The position numbers were made by a program, and so were the translations under genes. A model generated the notes under the pieces. It made no database searches. It had not been told where the DNA came from and saw nothing but the letters and a program-made list of their open reading frames with translations. A stretch of DNA of 64,000 nucleotides from Clostridiales bacterium (GTDB lineage: Bacteria > Bacillota > Clostridia > Christensenellales > Aristaeellaceae), in contig JAAYUF010000051.1 of NCBI GenBank assembly GCA_012517815.1, positions 1-64,000 of the forward strand, written 5' to 3'. How positions within the stretch are numbered: the stretch's first letter is position 1; each line of letters starts with the position of its first letter. Shown in pieces: positions 6,329 through 42,564 of the stretch.

Positions 6329-6337
6329 AGCCACCCC

Positions 6338-6363
6338 GGCGGAGGGTGGCAACGCCCTCCGCC
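6338..6363. repeat. 26-bp hairpin, copy 1 (identical to 7117-7142)
   Basis: GGCGGAGGGTGGCAACGCCCTCCGCC; 9-bp perfect stem, 8-nt loop. Confidence 0.9.
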
Positions 6364-6383
6364 CCATTTGAAAGGAGAATTTC

Positions 6384-9093: not shown

Positions 9094-9560
9094 AACAGAA
9101 CCCCTTACCGCTGGCAGATCGCCTGCTGGCAGACCCCGATTACGCCATCCGGGTATTTCGCGAACTCAAGCAAGAACGTTCCAAACGCGCTCATCTGGAA
9201 AAGCAAACCGCTGAACAGCGCCGCTGGGCGGCAATGATACGTCCCAAATTGGACTTCTTCGACCGGGTGCTGCGCAGGGGTGAGCTGCTCCCCACAGCGG
9301 TCATCGCTGCCGATTACGGCATGACGGAGCGCGATTTCACGGATATGCTCCGGGCGCTCGGCATCTGCTCGGATACAGGATACGGTCTGCGCCTGATGCC
9401 CCGGTATGCCCAGCAGGGCTACATGGCGTGGGAAACCATCCTGTATGGCAACCATCATAAGGATCAACGGCTGCTCTGGACGCAGCGTGGGCGATATTTC
9501 CTCTACCAGATGCTCAAGGATCACTACAATTTGCTGCCCCAAAAGGAGGCTATACCATGA
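9090..9560 (+). CDS. KilAC-like phage antirepressor C-terminal domain protein
   Basis: Similar to the C-terminus of the 6384 ORF: PKLDFFDRVL...MTERDFTDMLRALG...LWTQRGRYFLYQML. Confidence 0.65.
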   Translation: MKQNPLPLADRLLADPDYAIRVFRELKQERSKRAHLEKQTAEQRRWAAMIRPKLDFFDRVLRRGELLPTAVIAADYGMTERDFTDMLRALGICSDTGYGLRLMPRYAQQGYMAWETILYGNHHKDQRLLWTQRGRYFLYQMLKDHYNLLPQKEAIP

Positions 9561-9979
9561 TGTATCGCAATCACGAAGGCTATCCTGACCCTACTGCCGG
9601 CGCGGCGCTGGCCAGAATTGAGCAGGAGGAGTACCGGCAACGCTGTCCCTTCATGCCGCTGGTGTATATCTGCTCGCCGTATCAGGGAGATGTGGAACAC
9701 AACACACAGGCTGCGCAGCGCTACTCACGCTTTGCTTTGGAGAACAAGCGCCTGCCCATCGCGCCGCACCTGCTGTTCCCGCAGTTTATGGGCGCAGAAA
9801 CGGACGCTACGCGCGAGCTTGCCCTGCACATGGGCATGATCCTGCTCACCAAGTGCCATGAGCTGTGGTACTTCGGAGATCGGATCAGCGAGGGCATGAA
9901 ACTGGAGCTCAACCGGGCAAGGTGGCGCGGTATCCCCGTACGGCATTTCAACGAGAATTGTGAGGAGGTAGCCATTTGA
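9557..9979 (+). CDS. DUF4406/DUF7768-like (nucleoside 2-deoxyribosyltransferase-like) protein
   Basis: PLVYICSPYQGDVEHNTQAAQRYSRFALENKRLPIAPHLLFPQF...ELWYFGDRISEGMKLEL. Confidence 0.75.
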   Translation: MMYRNHEGYPDPTAGAALARIEQEEYRQRCPFMPLVYICSPYQGDVEHNTQAAQRYSRFALENKRLPIAPHLLFPQFMGAETDATRELALHMGMILLTKCHELWYFGDRISEGMKLELNRARWRGIPVRHFNENCEEVAI

Positions 9980-12474
9980 AAGCGCTCAACATCCCCTTAA
10001 CCGAATTCCTCCGCCCATTCTTTGAGCCTTCCGACAAGATCTGTCTGCGCATCTTCGACGACCGCAAGGCGGGCAGCATTTTCAAGGGCATGAAGGTGGA
10101 AACGTCGCTAGCCAAAGTTGACGCCATGGCGGAGGATCTGAAAAAGCATAACGCCCAGAATCGTGGCATCTACTTCGTAGTCAACGCTAGCGGCCATGAA
10201 GACAGCGAAATCCAGCGCGTCAACGCGCAGTTCATGGAATGCGACGAGCTGTCCCTGGAGGAGCAATGGGCCAAGATCAACGCTTTCCCGCTGGAACCGT
10301 CCATCGTGGTGAAAACCCGCAAGTCCCTGCACACCTATTGGCTGATGAAACATGCGGATGTCGCTTCCTTCCGCCGCGTACAGCAGGCGTTGGCTGCGTG
10401 CTTTGGCGGGGATAAAACCTGTGTTAACGAAAGCCGTGTGCTGCGTCTACCAGGCTTCTATCACTGCAAGCAGGAGCCGGTTATGGTGGAGTGCGTAAAA
10501 TTCAACCCTGAACTGCGCTACACGCAGGCCGAACTGGAGAAGCACCTCCCTAGGTTGGAGGAGGACACGCCCCGTAACCTTGTGAGCAACGTACCGAAGG
10601 GAACACAGCAGGGATTGACCTCCGTGCGCAAACGCTGTGATTTCATCCAGCACTGTGCGCAGAATGCCGCACAACTGTCTGAACATGACTGGTATGCCAT
10701 GATTACCAATCTGGCGGTTTTCGACGGCGGCGAGCAGGCAATCCATGCGCTGTCGGCTGAGTATCCCGGTTACCGCGCCTCGGAAACGCAGGAGAAAATC
10801 AACCACTTCATAGCCTCCGGCACCAAGCCCATGACCTGCAAAACCATTGCGGAGAAGGGTTTCCGTTGCCCCAGAATGCTGGATGGAAGTTGCGTGTGCA
10901 AGGCGCCGGCATCGATGTGTTATCTGCCGATGGATCTGGACGCATTGCGCGATAGACTGGCGGATCAGCCGGTCACTGGGCGCACCGTCGAGGATGCGAT
11001 CACCGCGCAGCATTTTGTACGCGAATACCTCTTCAATGTGGATCCTGTCGTAGCGGGCGCCTTCCTGCAATACGAGCTTCGCCAGCGGTTGGGCCTGAAG
11101 GCCATGGACATCAAGCCGCTGGACGCGATGCAAAAGGAACTGTTCAAGACATGGAAAAGCGCGAAAGAATCCCAACTCGACCGAAGCGACCTTGAGCTTC
11201 CCATTTGGTACGAGGTGACGGAGCGCGGCGGGCTACGCTTTAAGCCAGGCATCCTTGCCAACCATCTGGTACAGGACGTAGCGGCGTTCTATTCCACCGG
11301 CTCGTTCTACACCTACGACGGCGGCGTATACAAAATGCGGGATGACCTTTGGGCAGCCAACAAAGTACGCGAGTACATGAACGCGGGCACGGCGACGCAG
11401 AACGCGATCATGGACTGCACCTGGCAGTGGCGCATCCAAGTGCTCAAGCACGTGACGGAGATTAACGCCAACCCGTTCGTCATCAACCTGAAAAACGGCC
11501 TGTACAACGTGCTGGAGGAAACCCTGAAACCGCATTCGCCGGACTTCTGCTCCACCGTGCAGATCCAGGCCGCCTATCAGCCGGAAGCGCAATGCCCGCA
11601 GTTCATGGCTTTTCTGGAGAGCACGCTTGGAGCGCCTGAAATTGGACTGATGCAGGAGATCCTCGGATACTTCCTCGTGCCGCTCAACAAGGCGCAGAAG
11701 GCGTTCATCCTGGTCGGGGCACCGAATGCTGGCAAATCCACGATTCTATCTGTGGTTCAGGAAATCCTGCTAGGTCAGGACAACGTTTCCAACGTCGCCT
11801 GGCAGAATCTGAGCGACCGCTTCAACAAGGCGGAGCTGTTTGGCAAGCTGGCCAACATCTTTGCCGACCTGCCCAGCAAGGCGATCGAGGACAACGGTTT
11901 CTTCAAGTCCATGACCGGCGAGGATTACATCAGCGCGGAGCGTAAAAACAAGGACCCGTTCAACTTCCGACCTTACGCGCGGTTCCTGTTCTCATGCAAC
12001 GAGATCCCCCGCAACTACGGCGACCGCAGCGACGGTTTCTATCGCAGGCTGTGCATCATCCGCTTCAAAAAGCCTGTGCCCAAAGACCAGCGTGACCCGA
12101 ATCTGCTGGACAAGCTGGCGACCGAGCGCGACGGCATCCTGATGTGGGCGATCCAAGGCTTACGGCGTCTGATGGCGCAAAACTACCAGTTCACCGAAAC
12201 CGAGGCGACCGCGCAAGAGTTGAAACAATACCGCATTGAGTCCAACAGCGCGCTGCTGTTCATGGAGGAGTGCTGCGTTGTGGAGCCCAAGGCGGTGTCC
12301 GTGCGGGAGCAGGTGTTCGAGCGTTACCATGACTACTGCGTCAAAAACGGCTTGCGCCCGATGTCTCAAACCAGCTTCAACAAAGACGTTGAGAGCAATT
12401 ATCCAAGCGTCAGTCGCGCGACGGACAACGTTGCCAACCGACGCATCTGGCGGGGTGTGCGGCTGCATGACTAA
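9976..12474 (+). CDS. Phage/plasmid primase-helicase, P4 family C-terminal (D5-like)
   Basis: FILVGAPNAGKSTILSVVQEILLG Walker A; RPYARFLFSCNEIPRNYGDRSDGFYRRLCIIRF; 832 aa. Confidence 0.93.
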   Translation: MKALNIPLTEFLRPFFEPSDKICLRIFDDRKAGSIFKGMKVETSLAKVDAMAEDLKKHNAQNRGIYFVVNASGHEDSEIQRVNAQFMECDELSLEEQWAKINAFPLEPSIVVKTRKSLHTYWLMKHADVASFRRVQQALAACFGGDKTCVNESRVLRLPGFYHCKQEPVMVECVKFNPELRYTQAELEKHLPRLEEDTPRNLVSNVPKGTQQGLTSVRKRCDFIQHCAQNAAQLSEHDWYAMITNLAVFDGGEQAIHALSAEYPGYRASETQEKINHFIASGTKPMTCKTIAEKGFRCPRMLDGSCVCKAPASMCYLPMDLDALRDRLADQPVTGRTVEDAITAQHFVREYLFNVDPVVAGAFLQYELRQRLGLKAMDIKPLDAMQKELFKTWKSAKESQLDRSDLELPIWYEVTERGGLRFKPGILANHLVQDVAAFYSTGSFYTYDGGVYKMRDDLWAANKVREYMNAGTATQNAIMDCTWQWRIQVLKHVTEINANPFVINLKNGLYNVLEETLKPHSPDFCSTVQIQAAYQPEAQCPQFMAFLESTLGAPEIGLMQEILGYFLVPLNKAQKAFILVGAPNAGKSTILSVVQEILLGQDNVSNVAWQNLSDRFNKAELFGKLANIFADLPSKAIEDNGFFKSMTGEDYISAERKNKDPFNFRPYARFLFSCNEIPRNYGDRSDGFYRRLCIIRFKKPVPKDQRDPNLLDKLATERDGILMWAIQGLRRLMAQNYQFTETEATAQELKQYRIESNSALLFMEECCVVEPKAVSVREQVFERYHDYCVKNGLRPMSQTSFNKDVESNYPSVSRATDNVANRRIWRGVRLHD

Positions 12475-14207: not shown

Positions 14208-14789
14208 ATGGCCAAGGATGGCACCAACCGGGGCGGCCGACGCGTGCGCGCCGGAGACAAACCTACACCGCTGGCAAACAAAATCACGGCAGGCAAGGCG
14301 GCCAAAGTGCTGGAAGCGCCTGACCTCAAGCCTGAAACCGCGCTGGCTGGAACACTGCTCCCTTCACCCGCAGTCCTGACCGGAATGGATATGCCGGAGC
14401 CCAGCGAGTACCTCCGCGCCAACCAGAAGGACGGCAAGCCGCTCGGCGCGGATGCCTTGTTCATCGAAACTTGGCGCTGGCTCAAAGAGCGTGCCTGTGA
14501 CCAGTTCATCAGCCCCCGGCTGGTGGAAGCCTACGCGCAGGCATTCGCGCGCTACATCCAGTGCGAGGAAGCCATCAGCGCCTACGGCCTGTTGGGCAGG
14601 CACCCCACCACCGGCGGCGCGATTGCCAGCCCGTTTGTGCAGATGAGCCAGTCTTTTCAGAAGCAGGCAAACCTGCTCTGGTACGAGATTTTCGATGTGG
14701 TCAAGCAAAATTGCACCACCGCATTTGCGGGCAACCCACAGGACGATATCATGGAAGCCCTCCTGTCGGGCAGAAAGGGGAAACGATGA
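14208..14789 (+). CDS. Phage terminase small subunit (P27 family)
   Basis: FIETWRWLKERACDQFISPRLVEAYAQAFARYIQCEEAISAYGLLGRHPTTGGAIASPFVQM; HNH-TerS-TerL synteny. Confidence 0.85.
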   Translation: MAKDGTNRGGRRVRAGDKPTPLANKITAGKAAKVLEAPDLKPETALAGTLLPSPAVLTGMDMPEPSEYLRANQKDGKPLGADALFIETWRWLKERACDQFISPRLVEAYAQAFARYIQCEEAISAYGLLGRHPTTGGAIASPFVQMSQSFQKQANLLWYEIFDVVKQNCTTAFAGNPQDDIMEALLSGRKGKR

Positions 14790-16027
14790 ACACCACCGAG
14801 CGTTTTGAAAAAGTCGGCATCGACAAACTCATCCCGTATGCGCGCAATGCACGCCTTCACAGCAAGGAACAGATCAAGCAGCTGCGCGCCAGCCTTCGGG
14901 AATTTGGCTTCGTCAATCCGTGCATTATTGACAAGGATTACAACATCATCGCAGGGCATGGTCGTGTCATGGCAGCCAAGGAAGAAGGCATTTCAGAGAT
15001 CCCCTGTGTCTTTGCTGAGCATCTCAGCGATGCGCAGAAGCGCGCTTACATCCTCGCCGATAACCGTCTGGCGCTCAATGCCGGTTGGGACGATGAGATG
15101 CTCTCCGTGGAGCTGTCCGATCTGCAAACCAACGCCTTTGACCTCTCCCTGCTGGGTTTCAGCGATGCGGAGATGAACAAACTCATGGGCGGCATGGAAA
15201 ATGCCAAAGACGACGATTTCGATGTGGACGCGGAACTCCAAAAGCCCACGCTCACCAGGTCCGGCGATCTGTGGCTGCTGGGGAACCACCGTCTGGTTTG
15301 CGGCGACAGCACCAAGCCCGAAACGTATGCCCTGCTCATGGAGGGAAAGACAGCCAACCTTGTGATCACCGATCCTCCGTACAATTGCAATTATGAGGGC
15401 ACGGCTGGGAAAATCAAAAACGACAACATGGCAAGCGAGGCGTTTTATCAATTCCTGCTGGATGCTTTTAACCAGATGGAGAAGGTCATGGCGCAGGATG
15501 CCAGCATCTACGTTTTCCACGCGGACACCGAGGGGCTTAACTTTCGTAAAGCCTTTACAGAGGCCGGTTTCTATCTATCTGGCACATGTATCTGGAAAAA
15601 ACAGAGCCTTGTGTTGGGTCGCTCGCCCTATCAGTGGCAGCACGAGCCGGTGCTGTTCGGCTGGAAGAAATCCGGCAAGCATGCCTGGTATGCTGATCGG
15701 AAACAAACAACCATTTGGGAATTTGATCGGCCCCGCAAAAACGGCGACCACCCCACGATGAAGCCGATTCCGCTTCTGGCCTACCCGATCGTCAACTCGT
15801 CCATGACGGGCTGCGTGGTACTCGACCCCTTCGGTGGCAGCGGCTCGACGCTCATCGCCTGTGAACAGACTGGGCGTGTGTGCCGTATGGCCGAACTGGA
15901 TGAAAAGTTCTGCGACGTGATCGTCCGGCGGTTCATCCAGCAGGTCGGTACGGACAAGGACGTGTACCTCTCCCGCGAGGGACAGATGATACCGTTTTCC
16001 ACTGTAGAGGTGTCCACTAATGGATAA
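14786..16027 (+). CDS. ParB-domain + DNA N6/N4 methyltransferase
   Basis: N-terminal ParB-like IDKLIPYARNARLHSKEQIKQLRASLREFGFVNPCIID..GHGRVMAA; LVITDPPYNCNYEG (DPPY); DPFGGSGSTLIACEQTGR. Confidence 0.93.
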   Translation: MNTTERFEKVGIDKLIPYARNARLHSKEQIKQLRASLREFGFVNPCIIDKDYNIIAGHGRVMAAKEEGISEIPCVFAEHLSDAQKRAYILADNRLALNAGWDDEMLSVELSDLQTNAFDLSLLGFSDAEMNKLMGGMENAKDDDFDVDAELQKPTLTRSGDLWLLGNHRLVCGDSTKPETYALLMEGKTANLVITDPPYNCNYEGTAGKIKNDNMASEAFYQFLLDAFNQMEKVMAQDASIYVFHADTEGLNFRKAFTEAGFYLSGTCIWKKQSLVLGRSPYQWQHEPVLFGWKKSGKHAWYADRKQTTIWEFDRPRKNGDHPTMKPIPLLAYPIVNSSMTGCVVLDPFGGSGSTLIACEQTGRVCRMAELDEKFCDVIVRRFIQQVGTDKDVYLSREGQMIPFSTVEVSTNG

Positions 16028-17459
16028 CGTTCTTACCCTTGGTTCCCTGTTTGACGGCTCCGGCGGGTTTCCGCTTGGAGCCGTTTTCAGTGGTATCCTA
16101 CCCCTCTGGGCAAGCGAGATTGGGCCTTTCCCGATTAGGGTTACCACCAAGCGATTTCCCTGGATGCGGCATCTGGGGGATATCCACGGTATCAACGGCG
16201 CGGAAATCGAGCCTGTGGACATCATCACCTTCGGTTCGCCATGCACTGACATGTCGGTCGCTGGGAAGCGCGCAGGGCTTGAAGGTAAGCAATCTGTCCT
16301 TTTCTATGAAGCCATTCGTATCATCCGTGAAATGAGGAGTACCACGCATGGAAAATACCCACGGTTCATCGTCTGGGAAAATGTGCCCGGCGCGTTCTCC
16401 TCAAACAAAGGCGAAGACTTCCGCGCCGTTCTCAACGCCATCGTCCAAACCGCCGAGCCGGAAGCCGAGGTGCCTGCGCCTGACAAAAAGGGATGGCCAA
16501 CCGCCGACGTTCTGCTGGGAAACGGATGGAGCGTGGCGTACCGCACTGTCGATTCGCAATACTTCGGCGTCGCCCAACGGCGCCGTCGCATCTACCTTGT
16601 CGCAGATTTTGGAAGCGAGTGTGCCAGCGAGATTCTATTTGAGCGCGAAGGCGTGTCAAGGGATTTTGCGCCGGGCTTCCCTGCGGGGGAAACGGCTGCC
16701 GGACATCCTGCGAATCGCGCTGGAACAGCAGTCGCTTTCGAACCCGGAGCAGCCTCCCGTTTAGGCGGGCACTGCTGGACGGAGCACGCCGGAACGCTTC
16801 GCGCGGACGCTGGGGATAACCAGACGGCGGTCGTCATTGACCATACCCCCGTTGCTTTTGGTATCGGGTCGATGGATTCCGAAGGGATGAAGTCCGATAA
16901 TCCCCTCGTCGGTTTCTACGAAGCGCAGACCGCCAGAACGATCGACCGGGGCGGTGGCAACCCAACGTGCAACCAAGGCGGCATCGCCGTTTGCGCTCAA
17001 TCCGCTGTGCCCAACGAGGATAACGCATCCGTTGCTTGTACGATGACCACGGGCGAATTCACACAGGTTTGCCGCGAGCAATCTCCCTGCCTGCAGGCAA
17101 GGGACTACAAAGACCCACCGGTCGTGGGAAGACCGCGCTACACCATCCGTAGACTAACCCCTTCGGAGTGTGCGAAGCTGCAGGGTTTCCCGGACGATTG
17201 GTGTGCGGGGCTTGAAACACCGGCTCCCACAGAGGACGATATTACGTGGTGGGCGCGGGTGTTTGAAACGCATCGAAAAATCGTGGGCGTGGCCAAAAAA
17301 CCAAAGAGCAGGAAGCAGATCATCAAATGGCTGAGACAGCCTTACTCCGAGGCCGCCGAATATATGCTTTGGGGCAATGGGGTCGCTTTACCCTGCGTGT
17401 GCTTTGCGCTGCGTGGTATCACTGAGTTGGTTTCGACGGAACAGGAGAAAATAGTGTGA
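16020..17459 (+). CDS. DNA (cytosine-5)-methyltransferase
   Basis: LGSLFDGSGGFPLGA; FGSPCTDMSVAGKRAGLEG (catalytic PC); VWENVPGAFSS (ENV); FGVAQRRRRIYLVADF; RRLTPSECAKLQGFPDDW. Confidence 0.93.
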   Translation: MDNVLTLGSLFDGSGGFPLGAVFSGILPLWASEIGPFPIRVTTKRFPWMRHLGDIHGINGAEIEPVDIITFGSPCTDMSVAGKRAGLEGKQSVLFYEAIRIIREMRSTTHGKYPRFIVWENVPGAFSSNKGEDFRAVLNAIVQTAEPEAEVPAPDKKGWPTADVLLGNGWSVAYRTVDSQYFGVAQRRRRIYLVADFGSECASEILFEREGVSRDFAPGFPAGETAAGHPANRAGTAVAFEPGAASRLGGHCWTEHAGTLRADAGDNQTAVVIDHTPVAFGIGSMDSEGMKSDNPLVGFYEAQTARTIDRGGGNPTCNQGGIAVCAQSAVPNEDNASVACTMTTGEFTQVCREQSPCLQARDYKDPPVVGRPRYTIRRLTPSECAKLQGFPDDWCAGLETPAPTEDDITWWARVFETHRKIVGVAKKPKSRKQIIKWLRQPYSEAAEYMLWGNGVALPCVCFALRGITELVSTEQEKIV

Positions 17460-18633: not shown

Positions 18634-21270
18634 GTGGGCATAATCCGAAAGCTGAAAAAGTATAAGCCCACCGCCTTCATGGCCAAGACTTCACAGTACA
18701 GTCAACCCGCTGCCGATTACGCCGTATCCTTCATCGAGGCTCTTGCTCACACGAAAGGCAGCTGGGCGGGCAAGCCCTTTGAGCTGATCGACTGGCAGGA
18801 GCAGATCATCCGCGATGTGTTCGGCATCCTGAAATCCAACGGATACCGGCAATTCAACACGGCCTATGTCGAAATCCCGAAAAAGATGGGCAAACAAGTG
18901 GCGCTGGATACGCCGATACCCACGCCGGATGGTTTTTCGACAATGGGCGCCATCGCCGTGGGCGACATCGTTTTCGACGAGCGTGGGAAACCCTGCCATG
19001 TCGTTGCCAAGAGCGCGGTGGACTATGCCGAACGCGCATACCGAATCACCTTCAAAGACGGTGAGGTCATTGAGGCGGGTGAAAACCATCAGTGGTTCGG
19101 TGAGTATACGCGCGGTAAAAACAAACCCTGTGTTCTAACAACAGGTGAGTTAGCACGCCTGCCTCGTGATAGAAACTGCTATCGCTTTCGGATCCCCTTG
19201 GCGGGAGCGCTTGAGACGCCTGATGCAGACTTGCCGGTGGAGCCTTATCTATACGGCTACTGGCTCGGCAACGGAAACGCGGTCAAGCCGGAGATCACCG
19301 TAAAGACAGGTGATGTCGCTGCTGTTTTCAGGCACATCCTGCCTTTCCATGCAGTCGGTAGCGTACGGCAAAACACGGGCGACAGCCTTGTTTTCCGGAT
19401 ACCGGCGCTTCGTTGTGCTTTACTTGACAGCTTTCGTGACAAGGTAATCCCCGTCGCTTATCTACGCGCCTCCAAGGAGCAACGGCTACGTTTGCTGAAA
19501 GGCTTAATGGATTCAGATGGCGCAATCAGCAATCGAAAAGGCCAAGCGATCTATTCATCCACCGAGCGCGGACTTGCTAAAAGTGTCAGCGAATTGCTGT
19601 GGAGCCTTGGTATCAAGAATGCGATCGAAACAGCGGTCTCCACACAAAGGGTCGACTGGAGTATGCCAAGTGCGGAATGTGGACGGATAGCAACCGGTGA
19701 AACGCTGTACTATGTCAAGTTTACAGCGTTCAAGGATACGCCGGTTTCGGGGATGCACAGAAAGAAAAACCAGTCGGTGACACGCAATCCGCGAACGCGG
19801 AGCCATTACCGCTACATTGACACAATTGAGCCGATCGAAAACCGGGGCATGCAATGCATCCAGGTCAGCAGCGCGTCCCACCGATACTTGGTAGGCCGTT
19901 CGTGTTTACAGACGCACAATTCCGAACTGGCCGCCGCCATCGCCTTGCTGCTGACCTGTGGCGACGGCGAGGAGCGAGCCGAGGTCTACGGCTGCGCAGC
20001 CGATCGGCAGCAGGCGTCTATTGTGTTCGAGGTGGCTGCCGACATGGTGCGCATGTGCCCGGCGCTCTCCAAACGGGTCAAAATCCTTGCCTCCACCAAG
20101 CGGATCATCTATCTGCCCACAAACAGTTTCTATCAGGTGCTCAGCGCTGAGGCGTATTCTAAACATGGTTTTAACATCCATGGCGTGGTGTTTGACGAGC
20201 TGCATACCCAGCCCAACCGCAAGCTCTTTGACGTGATGACCAAAGGCTCCGGCGACGCGCGTACCCAGCCGCTCTACTTCCTGATCACCACGGCGGGAAC
20301 CGATACACAAAGCATCTGCTATGAGACCCACCAGAAAGCGCTGGATATCCTTGAAGGCCGAAAGCGTGACCCCACCTTCTACCCAGTTATCTACGGCGCC
20401 AAGGAAGAGGACGATTGGACGGATCCCAAGGTTTGGAAGAAAGCCAATCCATCGCTTGGCATCACGGTGTCGATTGACAAGGTGAAGGATGCCTGTGAGA
20501 GCGCCAAGCAGAATCCCGCCGAGGAAAACAGTTTCCGGCAGCTGCGCCTAAACCAGTGGGTCAAGCAGGCCGTGCGCTGGATGCCGATGGCCAAGTGGGA
20601 TGCCTGCTCGTTTACGGTTGATCTGGAAAGGCTTTCCGGCCGCGTCTGTTACGGCGGGCTTGACCTGTCCAGCACCACCGACGTGACAGCCTTTGTGCTG
20701 GTGTTCCCGCCGGAGGATGCGGACGGCAAGTACGAGGTTCTGCCCTTCTTCTGGATTCCAGAGGAAAATATCGATTTACGCGTGCGGCGTGATCATGTCC
20801 AATACGATCTCTGGGAAAAACAAGGGTTTCTGCTAACCACGGAAGGAAACGTTGTGCATTATGGTTTCATCGAAAAGTTCATTGAGGAACTAAGCACGCG
20901 CTTCAACATCCGGGAAATCGCCTTTGACCGCTGGGGCGCTGTGCAGATGGTGCAAAACCTTGAGGGATTGGGCTTCACGGTCGTTCCCTTCGGGCAAGGT
21001 TTCAAAGATATGTCGCCGCCCACCAAGGAACTGATGAAACTGACGCTGGAACAGAAACTCGCCCATGGCGGGCATCCGGTGCTCCGGTGGATGATGGACA
21101 ATATATACGTTCGCACTGACCCGGCGGGAAACATCAAGCCGGACAAGGAGAAATCTACGGAGAAGATCGACGGCGCGGTGGCGACCATCATGGCGCTGGA
21201 TCGGGCGATACGTTGCGGCGGTGGCAATAGCGAGAGCGTTTATAACGCGCGTGGCCTGTTGGTTCTATAA
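18634..21270 (+). CDS. Terminase large subunit precursor containing an intein
   Basis: Exteins SQPAADYAVSFIEALAHTKGSWAGKPFELIDWQEQIIRDVFG...YVEIPKKMGK + SELAAAIALLLTCGDGEERAEVYGCAADRQQA are TerL; 342 aa interrupts GK/S of Walker A. Confidence 0.95.
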   Translation: MGIIRKLKKYKPTAFMAKTSQYSQPAADYAVSFIEALAHTKGSWAGKPFELIDWQEQIIRDVFGILKSNGYRQFNTAYVEIPKKMGKQVALDTPIPTPDGFSTMGAIAVGDIVFDERGKPCHVVAKSAVDYAERAYRITFKDGEVIEAGENHQWFGEYTRGKNKPCVLTTGELARLPRDRNCYRFRIPLAGALETPDADLPVEPYLYGYWLGNGNAVKPEITVKTGDVAAVFRHILPFHAVGSVRQNTGDSLVFRIPALRCALLDSFRDKVIPVAYLRASKEQRLRLLKGLMDSDGAISNRKGQAIYSSTERGLAKSVSELLWSLGIKNAIETAVSTQRVDWSMPSAECGRIATGETLYYVKFTAFKDTPVSGMHRKKNQSVTRNPRTRSHYRYIDTIEPIENRGMQCIQVSSASHRYLVGRSCLQTHNSELAAAIALLLTCGDGEERAEVYGCAADRQQASIVFEVAADMVRMCPALSKRVKILASTKRIIYLPTNSFYQVLSAEAYSKHGFNIHGVVFDELHTQPNRKLFDVMTKGSGDARTQPLYFLITTAGTDTQSICYETHQKALDILEGRKRDPTFYPVIYGAKEEDDWTDPKVWKKANPSLGITVSIDKVKDACESAKQNPAEENSFRQLRLNQWVKQAVRWMPMAKWDACSFTVDLERLSGRVCYGGLDLSSTTDVTAFVLVFPPEDADGKYEVLPFFWIPEENIDLRVRRDHVQYDLWEKQGFLLTTEGNVVHYGFIEKFIEELSTRFNIREIAFDRWGAVQMVQNLEGLGFTVVPFGQGFKDMSPPTKELMKLTLEQKLAHGGHPVLRWMMDNIYVRTDPAGNIKPDKEKSTEKIDGAVATIMALDRAIRCGGGNSESVYNARGLLVL
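18895..19920 (+). other. In-frame intein (342 aa) with LAGLIDADG homing endonuclease domain; class 3 signature
   Basis: Starts QVALDTPIPTPDGFSTMGAIAVGDIVFDERGKPC (block A-like), ENHQW (block B), YLYGYWLGNG and LLKGLMDSDG (LAGLIDADG motifs), MQCIQVSSASHRYLVG (block F), CLQTHN|S (block G and +1 Ser). Confidence 0.93.
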
Positions 21271-21457: not shown

Positions 21458-22357
21458 TTGTTGGAGGCAAACGAACAGTATAAGGAAATCTTTGAGAACT
21501 TGAATGATGGTGTCTATTATGTTGATAGAGACCGCAGAATCACCTTTTGGAATAAGGGTGCCGAACGGATTTCCGGCTTTTCCAGCGATGAAGTGATCAA
21601 TACGCATTGCTATGATAATGTCTTAATGCATACAAACGACGAAGGAACACAACTCTGCATGAGCGGTTGTCCGTTGCTAAATAGTATCCAAACCAACCAT
21701 ATTAACGTCGCCTCCGTATATTTGCTACACAAAGCAGGCTATCGCGTGCCAGTGTCAGTACGAACTGTACCAATAGTAGAAAACGGCGAGGTATTCGGCG
21801 CGGTTGAGATATTTCAAGTGCAACACGAGCGGATGGAAAGTCTTTATAATATGCAGGAGCTAAAAACGCTAGCACTAACCGACCAGTTGACCGGCTTGCC
21901 CAACCGAAGATATACCGAAACGTTTTTGGCTTCAAGGATCAGCGAATATAAAGCGCTCGGGATAAATTTTGGCGTTCTTTTTATGGATATTGATCACTTT
22001 AAACTATTCAACGATCAGTATGGTCACGGGGTAGGCGACGACGTATTGCGAATCTTAGCAAAAACCTTTACCAGCAATCTTCGTAATAGTGACTTCATTG
22101 GCAGATGGGGCGGCGAGGAATTTATTGGGATCTGTGTTTGCCCCGATGAAGATAGTTTGAGGCAAGTTGCAGAAAAGATCAGAATTCTGGCAGAAAAAAC
22201 ATCGATTCCTTATGCAGATCAATCCTTAAGCGTAAGCATTTCGATCGGAGCGACACTATACCAAACGGACGAAACGGCTGAACAAGTTGTACAGCGAGCG
22301 GATAATTTGCTGTATATGAGCAAAACCAGCGGAAGAAACTGTGTTACCTTGGGTTAA
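21458..22357 (+). CDS. PAS-GGDEF diguanylate cyclase
   Basis: PAS: NLNDGVYYVDRDRRITFWNKGAERISGFSSDEVINTHC...LCMSGCPL; GGDEF: LTDQLTGLPNRRYTE...FMDIDHFKLFNDQYGHGVGDDVLR...GRWGGEEFIGI. TTG start. Confidence 0.93.
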   Translation: MLEANEQYKEIFENLNDGVYYVDRDRRITFWNKGAERISGFSSDEVINTHCYDNVLMHTNDEGTQLCMSGCPLLNSIQTNHINVASVYLLHKAGYRVPVSVRTVPIVENGEVFGAVEIFQVQHERMESLYNMQELKTLALTDQLTGLPNRRYTETFLASRISEYKALGINFGVLFMDIDHFKLFNDQYGHGVGDDVLRILAKTFTSNLRNSDFIGRWGGEEFIGICVCPDEDSLRQVAEKIRILAEKTSIPYADQSLSVSISIGATLYQTDETAEQVVQRADNLLYMSKTSGRNCVTLG

Positions 22358-27756: not shown

Positions 27757-28143
27757 ATGGATACGGAACGCAGCGCCACTATTGTGATTGGTGGGAAGCC
27801 CTATGAACTGATCCTCACGACCCGCGCTACTAAGGAAATCGCCCGTCGTTATGGTGGGCTGGAAAATCTCGGTGAGAAGCTCATGAAGTCGGAGAACTTC
27901 GAAATGGCGTTGGATGAGGTGGTGTGGCTGCTTACGTTGCTGGCCAACCAGTCCATTCTGGTGCGCAACCTGAAAAACAAGGAGGCGCCTGAACCGCTGC
28001 TGACCGAGGATGAGATTGAGTTGCTCACCTCCCCATTGGATCTGGCTGCGTACAAGGAAGCGATCACGGAAGCCATGTTTCGGGGCACCAAGCGCAATAT
28101 CGAAAGCGAGGAAGAAAGCTTAAAAAACGTGGCAGTCGGGTAA
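27757..28143 (+). CDS. Tail assembly chaperone, zero-frame product
   Basis: Position between the major tail and tape measure genes; 128 aa. Confidence 0.85.
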   Translation: MDTERSATIVIGGKPYELILTTRATKEIARRYGGLENLGEKLMKSENFEMALDEVVWLLTLLANQSILVRNLKNKEAPEPLLTEDEIELLTSPLDLAAYKEAITEAMFRGTKRNIESEEESLKNVAVG

Positions 28144-28331
28144 CGGACGAAGAAGTCTTTACCCGACTTTACTATTTTGCCACAGTGCCGATGGGCATGC
28201 ACGCGGATGAGTTCTGGCTCATGCCCATCGGGCTGTTCTTCGATCTTTGGTGCTGTCACAAGCAGTTCTTGGGGCTTGAAAAGCCAAAGCGGATTTTGTC
28301 GATTGACGATCTCATTCCGCCGGGGATCTAG
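28122..28331 (+). CDS. -1 frame extension of the tail assembly chaperone (gpGT-like fusion)
   Basis: Slippery A_AAA_AAC at 28122-28128 in correct phase; the -1 frame then reads RGSRVTDEEVFTRLYYFATVPMGMHADEFWLMPIGLFFDLWCCHKQFLGLEKPKRILSIDDLIPPGI to the stop at 28329-28331. Confidence 0.88.
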   Translation, partial: KKRGSRVTDEEVFTRLYYFATVPMGMHADEFWLMPIGLFFDLWCCHKQFLGLEKPKRILSIDDLIPPGI

Positions 28332-28349
28332 CTTTCCATGTGTAGCGAC

Positions 28350-29351
28350 TTAGTACTTCTTAGGGAACTTCTCCTTGCCATACTGCCACAAGTACTGGTC
28401 TATCTCTTTCAGAGTGAAGTTTTCAAGCGAGTAGAATGCTTGCAATTTGAGGAGCGTCTTCTTAAATACAGATATGTTCCGCAAGTCTTCCCTGTGGAAA
28501 TTTGCAAAATTGTCAACGTCCCTCAGGTAGACCAGTAACTCTTCTACAAAACTATCATATATGGGATAAACCTCTGGCTGATGGTGGCTACAGTATTTGG
28601 TAGCGAACGAGTAAAAGCGCAATTCTTTACCATTTTTTGTATTCCTCACGCCATGTCCTGAGGCAATATCCATAACCAAGGATTCATCGCCGCGCTTGAG
28701 CCGATCGTCAATATTGAGAGAGACAATATGCCGTGCAACCGCAAAAACATTATATATGTTGGTGCTGTAAAACGCGTTGAGTGCTGCTACCTTCAGCAGA
28801 ACATCGTCGAGGCTGTTATTTTCTGGGCTGAATTGCTTGAACAGTTTACTTAGGGCGCTTTCTTGCGCCTTGTAATTCTCAAGCGTGTTCCATTTCTCAA
28901 TGTAGCATTCTACAGCATCACGGCTTGGGTGTTCAAAATCAGACAGAGTGCGCGTTCTGTGAACAGTACGCAGAATTCGTGTTGTATAGGACCCAATGTT
29001 GGGATTCGTGTTGATGCTTTCATTCGTTTGCCTGACCACCAGCTTTCCCTCATGCTCAGCGATTTCCCATACGCCATGCTTCTTCGGGTCATAAAGGGTT
29101 ACAACCCCTCTGCTGACTGAATACAGGAAATCATATTTATCATTTGCGATACGCGGTCTATTGTTTTCAGGCATACTGACACGACTTTGGCGGTTTACGC
29201 AGCATGCAAGTGCCTGCGCATTGATTGTGCCTTCGTTTACAGTGCCATAATGATCAAAAATGTATTTCCTGATTTCAGCCATTGATATAGCATCGGTTCC
29301 AATGCTGGTTACTGCTTCTTGTATCATTTTCCAAACGGCTATATTAGACAT
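28350..29351 (-). CDS. Accessory (moron) protein with N-terminal DUF7669-like/winged-helix region; candidate phage-encoded defence factor
   Basis: 333-aa ORF antisense to the late genes: MSNIAVWKMIQEAVTSIGTDAISMAEIRKYIFDHYGTVNEGTINAQALACCVNRQSR...; C-terminal RFYSFATKYCSHHQPEVYPIYDSFVEELL. Confidence 0.8.
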   Translation of the reverse strand: MSNIAVWKMIQEAVTSIGTDAISMAEIRKYIFDHYGTVNEGTINAQALACCVNRQSRVSMPENNRPRIANDKYDFLYSVSRGVVTLYDPKKHGVWEIAEHEGKLVVRQTNESINTNPNIGSYTTRILRTVHRTRTLSDFEHPSRDAVECYIEKWNTLENYKAQESALSKLFKQFSPENNSLDDVLLKVAALNAFYSTNIYNVFAVARHIVSLNIDDRLKRGDESLVMDIASGHGVRNTKNGKELRFYSFATKYCSHHQPEVYPIYDSFVEELLVYLRDVDNFANFHREDLRNISVFKKTLLKLQAFYSLENFTLKEIDQYLWQYGKEKFPKKY

Positions 29352-29470
29352 GACACTCTCCTACCGAAATAAAATCATGGCCATATTGTATACGAAATGA
29401 AGAGCTTTGTACATGCGTGAAGGCTGTCAACACTTATTTTTAACGCCCGAATGTGTAAGGAGGTGACGAC

Positions 29471-31900
29471 ATGGGACAGGACAATTTCGGCCTGAAAATT
29501 GGGGTTGAGGGAGAGCGCGAATTTCGACAGGCGCTCAGCGATATCAACCAGACATTCAAAGTGCTGGGCAGCGAAATGGCGCTGGCAACCAGCCAGTTTG
29601 AAAAAAACGACAAGTCCATCCAAGCCGTCACCTCCCGTAACGCCGTCCTCAACAAAGAGATCGATGCTCAGAAAGAAAAGATTTCCACCCTGAAAGCCGC
29701 GCTGGATAACGCGGCTTCTTCTTTTGGCGAGAATGACCGTCGTACCCAGAACTGGCAGATCCAGCTCAACAAAGCGCAGGCAGAGCTCAACGGCATGGAG
29801 CGCGAGCTGGAGGAATCCGCCGAGGACGCAGACGATCTGGGCGAGCAAATTACCGATTCGGGCGAAAACGCCGAAAAGGCGGGTGGCAAGTTCGAAAAGC
29901 TCGGCAGCATCTTAAGCGGCATCGGCAAGGCGATGGGCACAGTGGCCGCCGCTGCCGGCGCCGCTGCGATCAAGCTGGGCAAGGAAGTCGTTCAGCAGTT
30001 CGGCGAGCTGGAACAAAACCTCGGCGGTTCGGAGGCGGTGTTTGGCAAATACGCCGACTCCATCCAGCGCACAGGCGAGGAAGCCTACAAGAACCTCGGC
30101 GTTTCCCAAAGCCAGTACCTCGCCACCGCCAACAAGATGGGCGCGCTGTTTCAGGGCTCGGGCGTTGAGCAGCAGAAAAGTCTGGAACTGACCGAAAAAG
30201 CCATGCAACGCGCCGCCGACATGGCTTCTGTCATGGGCATCGACATGCAGATGGCGCTGGATTCCGTCGCGGGCGCTGCCAAAGGCAACTTCACCATGAT
30301 GGACAACCTCGGTGTGTCCATGAACGCCACAACCCTTGAAGCCTATGCGCTTGCCAAAGGTCTGGATTTCACATGGGCGTCAGCCAGCAACTCGCAAAAG
30401 GCTGAACTGGCTATGCAGATGTTCTTTGAAAACACGGAGCAGTACGCGGGCAACTTCGCGCGGGAATCCACGCAGACCATTTCCGGCTCGCTTGGGCTCA
30501 TGAAAGCCGCGCTTGGTTCCTTTACGGCAGGTCTTGGCAACGCGAACGCTGACATGACCAACCTGACCCAGAATCTGGTGGACGCGTTTCAGGCTGTGGT
30601 GCAAAACATCGTGCCGGTGCTGGAAAACGTCGTGAGCGCCCTGCCGGTTGCGACCGGTGCTATCCTTACGGCCATCAGAGATCTGCTGCCGATGCTACTT
30701 GAGACTGTCACTTCCCTGTTCACGCAGGTGCTGGGAACGCTGCTGAGCCTACTGCCGGAACTGATCCCGTCGGCAGTGAGCGCGGTCATGACGATCACAG
30801 GCGCGCTGATTGAAAACCTGCCGCTGCTGGTCGCGGCGGCGGTGCAGCTCGTAACAGCACTGGTGGGAGGCATCGGGGCAGCGCTTCCCACGCTCATCCC
30901 TGCCGCTGTGACTGCCGTTATGACCATTGTGCAGGGATTACTGGAACAGTTGCCCCTCCTGCTGGACGCGGCGCTGCAGCTGATCTTGGGGCTTGCACAG
31001 GGCTTGCTCAATGCCATACCACAACTGATCGACGCATTGCCCGCCATCATCGACGCGCTGGTAAGCTTTCTGGTCCAGTCCATCCCGCAGATCATCCAGA
31101 CGGGAATCAAGCTCCTGACCGCACTAGTGACGGCGCTGCCGACTATCATCGCGGCCATCGTGAAGGCGATCCCGCAGATAATTTCAAGCATTATCAACGC
31201 AGTCATTACCGCCATCCCGCTCATTATCGACGCGGGCGTCAAGCTGCTGGTCGCGCTGATTCAAGCGCTTCCGCAGATCATCACAACGGTAGTCACAGCG
31301 GTACCTCAGATCGTAGGAGCGTTGACCGGGGCGTTTGTGGGGAACATCGACAAGATCATCCTTGCGGGCGTGCAGCTGTTCGTTGCCCTTATCAAGAACC
31401 TTCCGACCATCATCGTCGAGATTGTGAAGGCCGTTCCCCAAATCATAACAGCATTGGTGAACGGCTTTACAAGCTCTATCAGCCAGATCGCTACCGTGGG
31501 CGGAAACCTCATCAAGGGGTTGTGGCAGGGCATCTCGGATGCAGGCGCTTGGCTTCGCGACAAGATCTCTGGCTTCTTTGGCGGCGTGGTGGACAGCATC
31601 AAGAACTTCTTCGGCATCCATTCGCCCTCGACTCTATTTGCCGGGCTTGGCCGCAATATGGGTGAAGGCATCGGGGTCGGCTTTGAAGAAGCGATGGCCG
31701 GCGTGGCCAGAGATATGCAAAATGCCATTCCTACCAGCTTTGACATGAATGCAAGGGTGAACGAGTATGGCGCTAGCGCAGGAACCAACGGCACGAGCAT
31801 CACCCAGAATATCTCGGTCGTATCGCCCAAAGCGCTCTCCGAAAAAGAGATCGCACGCGAATTCAAGAACCTCTCCCGCAAGCTGGCGCTCGAATATTAG
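29471..31900 (+). CDS. Phage tail tape measure protein
   Basis: 809 aa; coiled coil N-terminus; long hydrophobic repetitive C-terminal half (LLEQLPLLLDAALQLI...ALPQIITTVVTAVPQIVG); KNFFGIHSPSTLFAGLGRNMGEGIGVGFEE. Confidence 0.95.
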   Translation: MGQDNFGLKIGVEGEREFRQALSDINQTFKVLGSEMALATSQFEKNDKSIQAVTSRNAVLNKEIDAQKEKISTLKAALDNAASSFGENDRRTQNWQIQLNKAQAELNGMERELEESAEDADDLGEQITDSGENAEKAGGKFEKLGSILSGIGKAMGTVAAAAGAAAIKLGKEVVQQFGELEQNLGGSEAVFGKYADSIQRTGEEAYKNLGVSQSQYLATANKMGALFQGSGVEQQKSLELTEKAMQRAADMASVMGIDMQMALDSVAGAAKGNFTMMDNLGVSMNATTLEAYALAKGLDFTWASASNSQKAELAMQMFFENTEQYAGNFARESTQTISGSLGLMKAALGSFTAGLGNANADMTNLTQNLVDAFQAVVQNIVPVLENVVSALPVATGAILTAIRDLLPMLLETVTSLFTQVLGTLLSLLPELIPSAVSAVMTITGALIENLPLLVAAAVQLVTALVGGIGAALPTLIPAAVTAVMTIVQGLLEQLPLLLDAALQLILGLAQGLLNAIPQLIDALPAIIDALVSFLVQSIPQIIQTGIKLLTALVTALPTIIAAIVKAIPQIISSIINAVITAIPLIIDAGVKLLVALIQALPQIITTVVTAVPQIVGALTGAFVGNIDKIILAGVQLFVALIKNLPTIIVEIVKAVPQIITALVNGFTSSISQIATVGGNLIKGLWQGISDAGAWLRDKISGFFGGVVDSIKNFFGIHSPSTLFAGLGRNMGEGIGVGFEEAMAGVARDMQNAIPTSFDMNARVNEYGASAGTNGTSITQNISVVSPKALSEKEIAREFKNLSRKLALEY

Positions 31901-38745: not shown

Positions 38746-38760
38746 TGGGAGGTGGGCATT

Positions 38761-40074
38761 ATGGGCAGAAAGATAACAAAACTGGCGGTTTCGGAGCCTA
38801 TCCCGACTCGGGAAAGGGTGGCTGCCTACGCACGGGTATCCTGTGGTAAGGATGAAATGCTGCACTCACTCGCGGCACAGGTCAGTTATTACAAGGAATT
38901 CATCCAAAGCCAGTCAGGATGGGACTTTGCAGGCGTATATGCCGACGAGGCTGTGACGGGAACGAAGGACAATCGGGTTGAGTTCGTTCGGATGCTTGCG
39001 GATTGCCAGTCGGGCAAGATCGATAGGGTGATCACAAAATCCATCTCCCGATTCGCACGGAATACGGTTACCTTACTGGAAACCGTCCGTGGCCTTGGAG
39101 AACTGGGCATCGATGTTTTCTTTGAGGAGCAGAACCTCCATACGGCCAGCGCGGATGGTGAGCTTCTCCTAACTATTCTGGCCAGTTATGCACAGGAGGA
39201 GAGCCGCTCAGTCAGTGAAAACTGCAAGTGGCGTATTCGTAAGGATTATCAGGAAGGCAAGCTAACCGGCGGCGTTCACATGTACGGCTACGATTACAGG
39301 GAAGGGACGCTGGTGGTTAATCCGCAGGAGGCCGAGGTTGTCCGGATGATCTTTTCGGATTACCTTTCCGGTATGGGCAGAAACGCCATTATGCGCAAGT
39401 TGATACGGTTGGGCATCCCCACCAAGCTCGGCGGGCGTTGGGCAGAAAACACCGTTGCCAGCATTCTAAACAATGAAAAGGTGGTCGGTGATCTCTGCTT
39501 GCAGAAGGGTTTTATATCCGACCACCTTACCAAACAGAAGCGAGTCAATCGTGGCGAGCTTCCCATGTATTATGTGGAAGGCGCTCATGAAGCCATTATC
39601 GACCGGGCAACCTTCGATGCCGTTCAGGCGGAAGTGGCTCGGAGAGCGCATGAGTGCAAGCCTGCCAGCAAAAAGCCTCGCAGCGAATTTTGCGGCATGA
39701 TCCGCTGTGGTCGCTGCGGCGCGAACTTCATCCAGAAAATCAACGCGATCGGTACGAAGTACGCCAAAGCGAACTGGGCGTGCGCTACCTACACCACGCA
39801 CGGCAAGGATTACTGCGCGGCAAAGCGTATCCCTGAGGATATCCTCCGACAGAAATGCGCGGAAGCCTTGGGAAGCAACGCTTACAACGCTGCTGACTTC
39901 ATGGCAAGGGTAGCAGCCATAACGATTCCAGAAGATGGGGTTTTGGTGTTCACCTTCAAAGATGGCACGCAAGTAACCATTCCATGGGAAAAGCACTCCC
40001 GTCGGGACAGTTGGACAGATGAGATGAAAAGCAAGGCGAAGGTCGCGGCAAAGAGGAGGCTTGGCAATGGCTAA
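38761..40074 (+). CDS. Large serine recombinase 1
   Basis: VAAYARVSCGKDEMLHSLAAQVSYY; SKSISRFARNT-type motif; Recombinase and zinc-ribbon domains (CGRCGANF). Confidence 0.95.
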   Translation: MGRKITKLAVSEPIPTRERVAAYARVSCGKDEMLHSLAAQVSYYKEFIQSQSGWDFAGVYADEAVTGTKDNRVEFVRMLADCQSGKIDRVITKSISRFARNTVTLLETVRGLGELGIDVFFEEQNLHTASADGELLLTILASYAQEESRSVSENCKWRIRKDYQEGKLTGGVHMYGYDYREGTLVVNPQEAEVVRMIFSDYLSGMGRNAIMRKLIRLGIPTKLGGRWAENTVASILNNEKVVGDLCLQKGFISDHLTKQKRVNRGELPMYYVEGAHEAIIDRATFDAVQAEVARRAHECKPASKKPRSEFCGMIRCGRCGANFIQKINAIGTKYAKANWACATYTTHGKDYCAAKRIPEDILRQKCAEALGSNAYNAADFMARVAAITIPEDGVLVFTFKDGTQVTIPWEKHSRRDSWTDEMKSKAKVAAKRRLGNG

Positions 40075-41668
40075 CGTTCGGGTTATCCCCGCTCTGGCGC
40101 CGATCGTGTCCGCTCAGGTAAAGGATACGACGGTCAAGCGGCGGGTGGCGGCTTACGCGCGAGTTTCGACCGATAGCGACGAGCAGCAGACCAGTTATGA
40201 AGCGCAGGTGGATTATTATACCAAGCTGATCCACTCCCGGCCGGACTGGTCTATGGTCGATGTATTTACGGACGAGGGAATCTCGGCAGTCAACACCAAG
40301 CGGCGTGAGGGTTTCAAGCGGATGGTCGCGGACGCGCTCTCCGGCAAGATTGACCTGATTGTCACCAAATCGGTCAGCCGTTTTGCCCGCAACACGGTCG
40401 ACAGCCTCACCACGGTTCGCAAGCTGAAGGATAACGGCGTTGAAGTCTGGTTCGAAAAGGAAAACATCTACACGCTGGACAGCAAAGGCGAACTGTTGAT
40501 CACCATCATGTCGTCGCTAGCCCAGGAAGAAAGCCGTTCCATTTCCGAAAACGTCACCTGGGGTGCGCGTAAACGGATGGCCGACGGCAAGATTTCCTTG
40601 CCCTACGGTCAATTCCTGGGCTATGAAAAGGGCGAGGATGGCTTGCCGAGTATCGTTGAGAGCGAAGCCGTGATTGTGCGCCGCATTTTTCGCCAATACA
40701 TGGAGGGCAAAACCCCCTCGATGATCGGCAAGCTGCTGGAAAAGGACGGGATTCCGGCTCCGGGCGGCGGTATGATATGGCAGTCCGCCACGGTTCGCTC
40801 CATACTCACCAACGAAAAGTACAAAGGGCATGCCCTGATGCAGAAAACCTACTGCTCAAACTTCCTGACCAAGAAGATGGTCAAAAATACCGGACAGGTT
40901 CAGCAGTATTACGTCGAGGACAGCCATCCAGCGATCGTGTCTCCCGATGAGTTTGACATGGTACAGGCTGAAATCGAGCGCCGCAAGAGTCTGGGCAGAC
41001 CGGGTCGATGCAACAGCATATTCGCTGGCAAGATCGTCTGCGGCGATTGCGGCGGCCTTTACGGCAGAAAGGTTTGGGGCAGTTATAAAGAGGATAAAAA
41101 CTACCGCAAAGCGGTATACCAGTGCAACGATAAGTATAAAGGGAGCAAGCGATGCACAACCCCGCACGTGACCGAGGAGCAGATCACGGCTGGGTTTCTG
41201 GTTGCGTTTAACAAACTGATGGAAAACCGCTCCCGTCTGATTGAGGATTGCCGCTTGGTGCAGGCTACGCTTTGTGACACTAGCGCCATCGACGCAGAGA
41301 TATCCACCCTGCGGCGTGATCTGGATGTGGTTTCGGCACTGGCCCGAAAAGAAATCGCGCAAACCGCAAAAGCAGCAGGCGACTCGGATTGCAGCAATAG
41401 CCACTTGGAACGTTTCCGACAGGTCAATGAACAGATTACGGGGTTGGAAGCCGAAAAGGTAAAACGACTTGCCAAAGCGAAGGCGCTTGATCGGTTTGTT
41501 CGAGAAGTGGAGGGCAAGCCGCTGATCCTGGAAGCCTTTGATGAAAAGCTGTGGCTTGCGGTCGTGGATCAGGTGACAGTTGGTGTGGATGGAGAGATGG
41601 TGTTTCGGTTTAGAAATGGTGCGGATCTGGCATGTCAATATTCGCTATCAGGACTAGTTATTATATAG
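40067..41668 (+). CDS. Large serine recombinase 2
   Basis: VAAYARVSTDSDEQQTSYEAQVDYY; VTKSVSRFARNTVDSL; AGKIVCGDCGGLYGRKVW; C-terminal coiled coil. Confidence 0.95.
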   Translation: MANVRVIPALAPIVSAQVKDTTVKRRVAAYARVSTDSDEQQTSYEAQVDYYTKLIHSRPDWSMVDVFTDEGISAVNTKRREGFKRMVADALSGKIDLIVTKSVSRFARNTVDSLTTVRKLKDNGVEVWFEKENIYTLDSKGELLITIMSSLAQEESRSISENVTWGARKRMADGKISLPYGQFLGYEKGEDGLPSIVESEAVIVRRIFRQYMEGKTPSMIGKLLEKDGIPAPGGGMIWQSATVRSILTNEKYKGHALMQKTYCSNFLTKKMVKNTGQVQQYYVEDSHPAIVSPDEFDMVQAEIERRKSLGRPGRCNSIFAGKIVCGDCGGLYGRKVWGSYKEDKNYRKAVYQCNDKYKGSKRCTTPHVTEEQITAGFLVAFNKLMENRSRLIEDCRLVQATLCDTSAIDAEISTLRRDLDVVSALARKEIAQTAKAAGDSDCSNSHLERFRQVNEQITGLEAEKVKRLAKAKALDRFVREVEGKPLILEAFDEKLWLAVVDQVTVGVDGEMVFRFRNGADLACQYSLSGLVII

Positions 41669-41871: not shown

Positions 41872-42564
41872 ATGAAAACTATGCTTGAAATGACTTGTCC
41901 TAAATGCGGAGCAAATTTATCTGCCGAAACAGATAGAGATGCTATTTTTTGTATACATTGCGGTGTGAAGATACTTTTAAACGATGAAAATACATATACA
42001 ATTCGCAATGTCGATGAAGCAAAAATCAAACAGGCCGAAACTGATCACATAATACGCATCAAGCAAATAGAGATGGCAGAAAAAAGAGCTGAGGCGACCC
42101 AGAGAAATTTGAAGCTGAAGGTTATAATTTCTCTAAGTCTTGCAATTGTTGGAATCTTTATGATGGTAATCGGAGGTATGGCGGGGCAAGCGAGTGGCGA
42201 TCCAGACTCCGGATTCTATATGCTTACTTTAATCGGATTTTTTCCACTTATGGGGGCTGCATATATCTGGCTCAATTCCAAAAAGGAAGATGATGGGAAC
42301 GATTATGGAGATATGGTAAGAGTGCCGTCTGCTGTAGATAGTTTTCAAAGCAAAAATCACGCAGTAATTGTATCTATTTTTAAGGCTGCTGGATTTAAAA
42401 ATGTCCAATGTATACCTCTTAATGATTTAACCATTGGAATTCTCAAAAAACCGGGCATGGTAGAGTCAATATCAATAAATGGCAACGAAATCACCTCTAG
42501 TGGTAAAAAGTTCCCATCGAGTGCGTCTGTAGTAATATCTTACCACAGCTTTGCAAACAGATAA
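41872..42564 (+). CDS. Zinc-ribbon, membrane-spanning hypothetical protein
   Basis: MTCPKCGANLSAETDRDAIFCIHCGVKIL; two hydrophobic segments; AT-rich relative to its surroundings. Confidence 0.7.
   Translation: MKTMLEMTCPKCGANLSAETDRDAIFCIHCGVKILLNDENTYTIRNVDEAKIKQAETDHIIRIKQIEMAEKRAEATQRNLKLKVIISLSLAIVGIFMMVIGGMAGQASGDPDSGFYMLTLIGFFPLMGAAYIWLNSKKEDDGNDYGDMVRVPSAVDSFQSKNHAVIVSIFKAAGFKNVQCIPLNDLTIGILKKPGMVESISINGNEITSSGKKFPSSASVVISYHSFANR

Follow-up and report, generated by a model that had tools for sequence, protein, structure and literature searches.

An antisense gene for a winged-helix and putative glycosylase-like protein in an accessory hotspot of siphophage tail modules

Comparison of related loci shows the junction between the tail assembly chaperone and tape-measure genes to be an accessory hotspot in one family of temperate siphophages. 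In the prophage analyzed here, which lies in a window of 64,000 nucleotides (the whole stretch of Clostridiales DNA that was analyzed), this junction holds a single antisense gene for a 333-aa protein, P0001. The explanation we prefer, and hold with moderate confidence, is that the gene is a moron expressed in the lysogen from a recurrent cargo slot, and that its winged helix and glycosylase-like domain would act on incoming DNA as a single-gene defence.

The left flank of the site is a gpG-like tail assembly chaperone gene (27757–28143, plus strand; PHROG 2115 tail protein, E = 2.4e-27; 68–73% identity in the other carriers). A slippery AAAAAAC (28122–28128) leads by −1 frameshifting into a gpT-like extension (28122–28331, plus strand) that ends in a TAG at 28331, as read from the −1 frame translation and from relatives with the same extension. 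The right flank is the tape measure gene (29471–31900, plus strand; PHROG 58, E = 3.7e-80). Comparison with the empty sites of loci L006 and L086 defines an insert of 1127 bp (28332–29458), and against the empty L006 site its ends are exactly the gpT stop and the tape-measure Shine-Dalgarno (SD) sequence GGAGGTGA (29459–29466, plus strand), the latter forming its right boundary. The insert has 43% GC compared with about 57% in its neighbors, and the third-position GC of the antisense gene is 0.49 versus 0.69–0.73 in the flanking genes. The gene itself (28350–29351, minus strand) starts with ATG behind an SD-like GGAGAG (29356–29361, minus strand), and its stop codon lies 19 bp beyond the TAG of the chaperone −1 product. 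The initial annotation had described a minus-strand ORF of 333 aa in this position, 19 bp past the stop of the frameshift product and richer in AT than its neighbors, and all of this is borne out. It had also called the gene the sole one on the minus strand within the phage modules; we likewise saw no other convincing one, the other long minus-strand ORFs overlapping plus-strand genes.

The ORF is not a chance reading frame, because three related phage contigs from IMG/VR (L002, L003 and L004) encode a protein 63–67% identical over its whole length, and in every case the gene lies antisense in this same junction, with a frameshift in the L004 copy. No relative of the 333-aa protein was found in the phage GenBank collection, and among 150 related genomes a single one had a match to the whole protein, which was partial and interrupted.

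To follow the junction in other phages, about 150 loci were gathered with the chaperone or the tail tube protein as bait and the interval separating the chaperone stop from the tape-measure start was measured; once near-identical copies had been removed, there remained 94 distinct loci in which both flanking genes are present. The junction was empty in 68 of these (189–314 bp, accounted for by the frameshift extension only) and occupied in 26 (527–3751 bp), rates that describe the loci nearest to the bait rather than all phages. When the four loci fetched through the antisense gene are left out, occupancy is 22 of 90. Cargo GC was below that of the flanks in all 26 occupied loci. The initial annotation had looked to related prophages for unrelated genes at the same junction, and 22 of the 26 occupied loci indeed carry cargo unrelated to the antisense gene. 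This cargo includes AbiEi/AbiEii (L092), ParE with an antitoxin-like gene and an 8xMP-like membrane protein (L141), a NOV_C protein (L026), DUF2971 (L136), an Imm5-like protein (L022), a GNAT protein (L105), an isochorismatase together with an HTH-methyltransferase (L081), DUF1232 (L018) and several unknowns. In L088 the slot holds three consecutive tyrosine-recombinase-like genes (7317–10663), one of which was tested by HMM; their likeness to a recombinase-in-trio element suggests that mobile elements also land in the slot. For this phage group, the junction thereby shows exactly where prophage cargo can be mined: more than about 320 bp between chaperone and tape measure marks an accessory unit, which is the case in roughly a quarter of the sampled phages, and much of this cargo is uncharacterized.

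Hotspots of this general kind are already known from the morons of Burkholderia phages at fixed sites (PMC2920897) and from the defence hotspots of P2 and P4 prophages (PMC9122126); there, too, a junction conserved among related prophages holds differing accessory genes, defence systems included. The slot described here differs from these: it belongs to a single siphophage family and is a gap of 2 bp that separates the stop codon of the frameshifted chaperone product from the tape-measure SD. No description of the chaperone/tape-measure junction as a hotspot was found in the literature searched, the coverage of which was incomplete.

A hairpin of the type GGAGCAACCGAAAGGTTGCTCCTTTTTCATGCCC stands just before the tape-measure SD in 16 of the 22 other occupied sites (15 by pattern and L116 by eye), compared with 1 of the 68 empty ones. 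Unrelated sense cargos (for example L022, L025, L031, L136 and L144) end in nearly the same terminator followed by CATGCCC. This common terminator end suggests that the cargos either share a partner sequence for recombination or have been exchanged repeatedly through that end. A transposon with terminal repeats was considered as well and rejected: the ends of the insert have only ATGTGTA in common, and the cargo families are without common left ends.

The content of the slot changes fast relative to its flanks, by exchange or loss, because the closest relative found (L006; chaperone 94% and tape-measure N-terminus 97.5% identical) has an empty site, while L007 (chaperone 92%, tape-measure N-terminus 93%) has a ParE/Phd pair in the slot instead. 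Among the carriers, on the other hand, the cargo is about as diverged (63–67% identity) as the chaperone and tail tube genes (68–73%), and the antisense unit may therefore be old in this phage group. Within the cargo of L007, on the same contig as L087, part of the chaperone frameshift extension occurs a second time (YYHTRLFYYATLPMSMRAEDFWLMPI; 6213–6404), likely as the scar of an unequal recombination at the slot.

Upstream of the antisense gene, a scan identified a consensus-matching promoter sequence, TGTACA-17-TACAAT (29385–29413, minus strand), directed away from the tape measure. In the alignment, both hexamers and the 17-bp spacing are kept in all four carriers (this prophage, L002, L003 and L004) amid diverged DNA, although L002 and L004 are close copies and the conservation thus amounts to three independent lineages. 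Given this conservation of a promoter sequence of the sigma-70 type, expression of the gene in the lysogen is likely. Reading the other antisense cargos (L081, L105, L141 and L153) gave TTGAAA/T-17-TATAAT (TATCAT in L153) just upstream of the tape measure and pointing away from it. These four are without the shared hairpin, and a sequence scan found no terminator downstream of the antisense gene studied here. As read from sequence, the slot units thus have the layout of morons: a promoter and a gene, plus a terminator in the sense cargos. The initial annotation had regarded the gene as such an accessory unit, and the vacant or differently filled sites of relatives, the gene's own conserved promoter sequence and its deviant GC uphold that assignment.

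Among known morons, HK97 gp15 also sits in the tail region. Another parallel is Tab of Pseudomonas phage JBD26, an 83-aa protein encoded between the terminase genes that blocks tail assembly (PMC10884400). Both are minus-strand morons within a late operon with a promoter of their own, Tab being expressed by the prophage and the gene described here having a promoter read from sequence and a predicted expression. They differ in site and size, the present protein having 333 aa and its gene lying at the chaperone/tape-measure junction. Tab is a tested precedent for a self-promoted defence moron on the minus strand inside late genes (PMC10884400).

The whole protein was modeled with AlphaFold2 at a mean pLDDT of 86.5, with a confident winged helix and a confident helical domain separated by a disordered linker (aa 112–137; 28941–29018, minus strand; pLDDT <50). 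The N-terminal part (aa 6–85; 29097–29336, minus strand) is a DUF7669 winged-helix domain, matching Pfam PF24706 with 48.5 bits against a cut-off of 23 (E = 1e-12) and showing helices and a beta-wing in the model, and its Foldseek neighbors are forkhead and other winged-helix DNA-binding domains. The resemblance to DUF7669 proposed from the sequence at the outset was thus correct; in this protein the domain is fused to a helical one. Few genomes of the class have DUF7669 (3 of 148, this one included), and no described function for it was found in the literature searched, again with incomplete coverage. Sequence searches of NCBIfam, PADLOC, PHROGs and the PDB with the protein returned nothing useful, and a viral fold library gave no meaningful match.

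The C-terminal domain (C-domain; aa 138–333; 28353–28940, minus strand) is all-helical, with a pLDDT of 94.7 when modeled in isolation. Its best PDB match in Foldseek is an archaeal OGG2 (E 0.066, probability 0.94, TM 0.36), followed by the queuosine-salvage protein DUF2419 in second place and by MutY. Glycosylases of the helix-hairpin-helix (HhH) type make up 17 of the best 32 PDB matches, with TM values of up to 0.44 (Thermotoga OGG2); no structural match reached an E value of 0.001 or better. Two polar residues are invariant in alignments A4, A6 and A8: Lys252 (SFATK252YCS; codon 28596–28598, minus strand) and Asp266 (PIYD266; codon 28554–28556, minus strand). SFATKYCS was itself the pattern of the species-genome search, which biases the invariance of Lys252 there, but both residues are also kept throughout A4, whose 11 members were retrieved by profile or whole-protein searches and include three with an identity of only 30–34%. 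The 14-residue spacing from Lys to Asp is indeed shorter than in canonical OGG1, as had been noted from the sequence: it is 19 in hOGG1 (K249/D268) and 32 in AGOG (K140/D172) (PMC3397491).

At the sequence level, HhH-GPD HMMs did not match the protein, Pfam OGG (PF21790) was unmatched at E ≤ 10, the Nth and MutY sets gave hhalign probabilities below 1%, and the LPGxG hairpin of HhH proteins is absent from the sequence. DUF6308 (PF19827) came closest, with a sub-threshold 13.6 bits against 27.3 and weak matches in 4 of the 11 relatives (best E 0.0011); almost no DUF6308 or Pfam OGG members for a profile-profile comparison were present in the genomes reached. The C-domain, which has OGG2 and MutY among its best PDB neighbors, is all-helical like them and has a conserved Lys and Asp as candidate counterparts of the catalytic Asp of HhH-GPD enzymes and the Lys of their bifunctional members; it differs from them in its Lys-Asp spacing and in having neither the hairpin nor an HMM match. 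The OGG-like C-terminus suggested in the initial annotation is accordingly upheld in part: the best structural neighbors are HhH glycosylases and the Lys/Asp pair is invariant, but the likeness is weak (E 0.066, TM 0.36–0.44) and unaccompanied by sequence homology or the hairpin. The Foldseek comparison it had envisaged for an AlphaFold model came out in the same way, with winged helices matching the N-terminus and glycosylases the C-domain, the glycosylase match being below significance. On the strength of the model, a remote glycosylase-like domain is a plausible assignment.

Sequence searches indicate that the C-domain is a family of its own, present in more than 80 genomes, conserved across phyla, often carried on mobile elements and without a Pfam model above threshold. 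A profile search of 392 genomes of the class found the 196-aa domain in 16, and the pattern search of species genomes returned 205 encoding stretches, of which 80 were kept, from Clostridia, Bacilli, Bacteroidota, Spirochaetota, Proteobacteria, Patescibacteria and one archaeon; a plasmid search yielded mainly distant Enterococcus matches. About half of the members stand alone (~195 aa). The others are fused to DUF7669 (L179 and L242, which also pass the PF24706 cut-off), to DUF7225 (L208), to an HTH-like module (L190, L194, L213, L214 and L246) or to a YLWR-type N-terminus. Because near-identical 334-aa copies occur across different genera (L229, L235, L237, L239 and L258) and several copies lie just downstream of the serine integrases of prophages or integrative and conjugative elements (ICEs), the family is often mobile cargo elsewhere too. 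Loci with the YLWR-type fusion (the same five, and L226, L232, L238 and L241) are found in mobile elements, where the fusion gene neighbors a nucleotidyltransferase-like gene or is overlapped for about 60 bp by an uncharacterized gene of 357–359 aa (MKIHYFQRYHEKENVATANTML...). Neighbor tallies of the C-domain loci showed no constant partner gene. A PD-(D/E)XK nuclease gene (PF14281) lies downstream of the C-domain gene in L269; an ADP-ribosylglycohydrolase gene stops 1 bp before it in L256, and a fragment of one overlaps it in L200, a neighborhood seen in 2 of the 80 loci only and hence thin.

Several of these observations point to a role of the gene in competition between mobile elements, as far as gene content and position can tell: the cargo slot itself and the defence- and toxin-type genes that relatives have there, a promoter of lysogen type, the positions beside integrases elsewhere, and the PD-(D/E)XK and ADP-ribosylglycohydrolase neighbors. 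We envisage a self-contained unit that entered the chaperone/tape-measure junction in antisense orientation and that the lysogen would transcribe constitutively. The winged helix would carry the C-domain to DNA, where a glycosylase-like pocket around Lys252 and Asp266 would remove or recognize a base, probably a modified one, of the incoming DNA, and a competing phage would thereby be stopped. Because of the antisense placement, induction would set rightward late transcription against the gene, and the phage could thereby be protected from its own weapon. Known anti-phage defence models give no lead here, 0 families being matched in PADLOC.

Such a mode of action would follow the manner of Brig1 and Brig3, defence DNA glycosylases of the uracil-DNA-glycosylase (UDG) superfamily that have an ADP-ribosylglycohydrolase-type neighbor, BapA in the case of the Brig3 operon (PMC11078745, PMC13160076). 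The proposed base-directed attack on phage DNA and, in a few C-domain loci, the ADP-ribosylglycohydrolase-type neighbor are alike, whereas the fold is a different one: the C-domain is all-helical, and there is no UDG structure among its 50 listed structure matches. If the C-domain removes bases, it would constitute a second structural lineage of defence glycosylases. More tentatively, and with the odds rather against it, the family could represent a new class of its own: mobile defence proteins of a DNA glycosylase-like type that differ in sequence from HhH-GPD and UDG enzymes, are directed to DNA by swappable N-terminal modules (DUF7669, DUF7225, HTH-like) and have an ADP-ribosylglycohydrolase-type enzyme or a PD-(D/E)XK nuclease as an occasional partner.

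Among the alternatives, a toxic or abortive moron fares best, though we regard it as unlikely. The helical domain would then hydrolyze a nucleoside, a nucleotide or a tRNA base and kill or arrest the infected cell, and the winged helix would serve as sensor or autorepressor. DUF2419 being the second structural match fits this reading, as do the toxin-antitoxin pairs in the same slot of relatives and a DNA-binding domain encoded beside its own promoter, which could autoregulate; yet the gene is without an antitoxin partner, and the family consists largely of stand-alone single genes whose N-terminal domains are freely swapped. It is improbable that the gene instead serves the fitness of the lysogen, for instance by removing damaged bases, independently of phage competition. 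The patchy and mobile distribution (the 16 of 392 genomes mentioned above), the cargo positions in prophages and ICEs, and the 1–5 HhH-GPD proteins that the host and its relatives each already possess argue against such a role, despite the remote likeness to 8-oxoguanine and MutY repair enzymes and a PAS-GGDEF signaling gene in a probable second accessory site, which indicates that not all cargo of this prophage is defence.

A regulatory role, in which the protein would bind phage DNA via DUF7669 and antisense transcription would dampen the chaperone genes in the lysogen, draws on the N-terminal winged helix and on a gene that reads towards the chaperone with no terminator found behind it. It is rendered very improbable by the 68 of 94 relatives that do without any cargo, by other slot cargo that is often in sense orientation with terminators, and by a C-domain that also occurs alone and whose invariant polar residues are of the kind usual in catalytic pockets. 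Finally, a conserved role in tail structure or assembly, as the same place and orientation in four phages might suggest, can be set aside almost entirely: 68 of 94 close relatives lack the gene, 22 have unrelated genes in its stead, and its domain occurs outside phages as well.

A few further features of the prophage were noted. The large terminase ORF (window positions 18634–21270, plus strand; 878 aa) contains an in-frame intein between ...VEIPKKMGK and SELAAAI..., recognized by comparison with the uninterrupted L004 sequence KKNGKSELAAAV; it apparently starts with Gln (QVALDTPIPT...) and ends in CLQTHN before Ser. Between the terminase and portal genes lies the PAS-GGDEF (diguanylate cyclase) gene (21458–22357, plus strand; 44% GC), and L003 has a HigBA-like pair, identified by eye, at this junction, which is probably a second accessory slot of the phage group. 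Further upstream (14561–17459, plus strand), a ParB-like/N6-type DNA methyltransferase gene adjoins one for a C5-cytosine methyltransferase, both recognized by eye; the prophage may mark its own DNA with these enzymes. At the right end of the prophage there are two overlapping serine recombinase genes (38752–41668, plus strand), which are followed by a gene (41872–42564) for a zinc-ribbon protein that likely includes a membrane segment.
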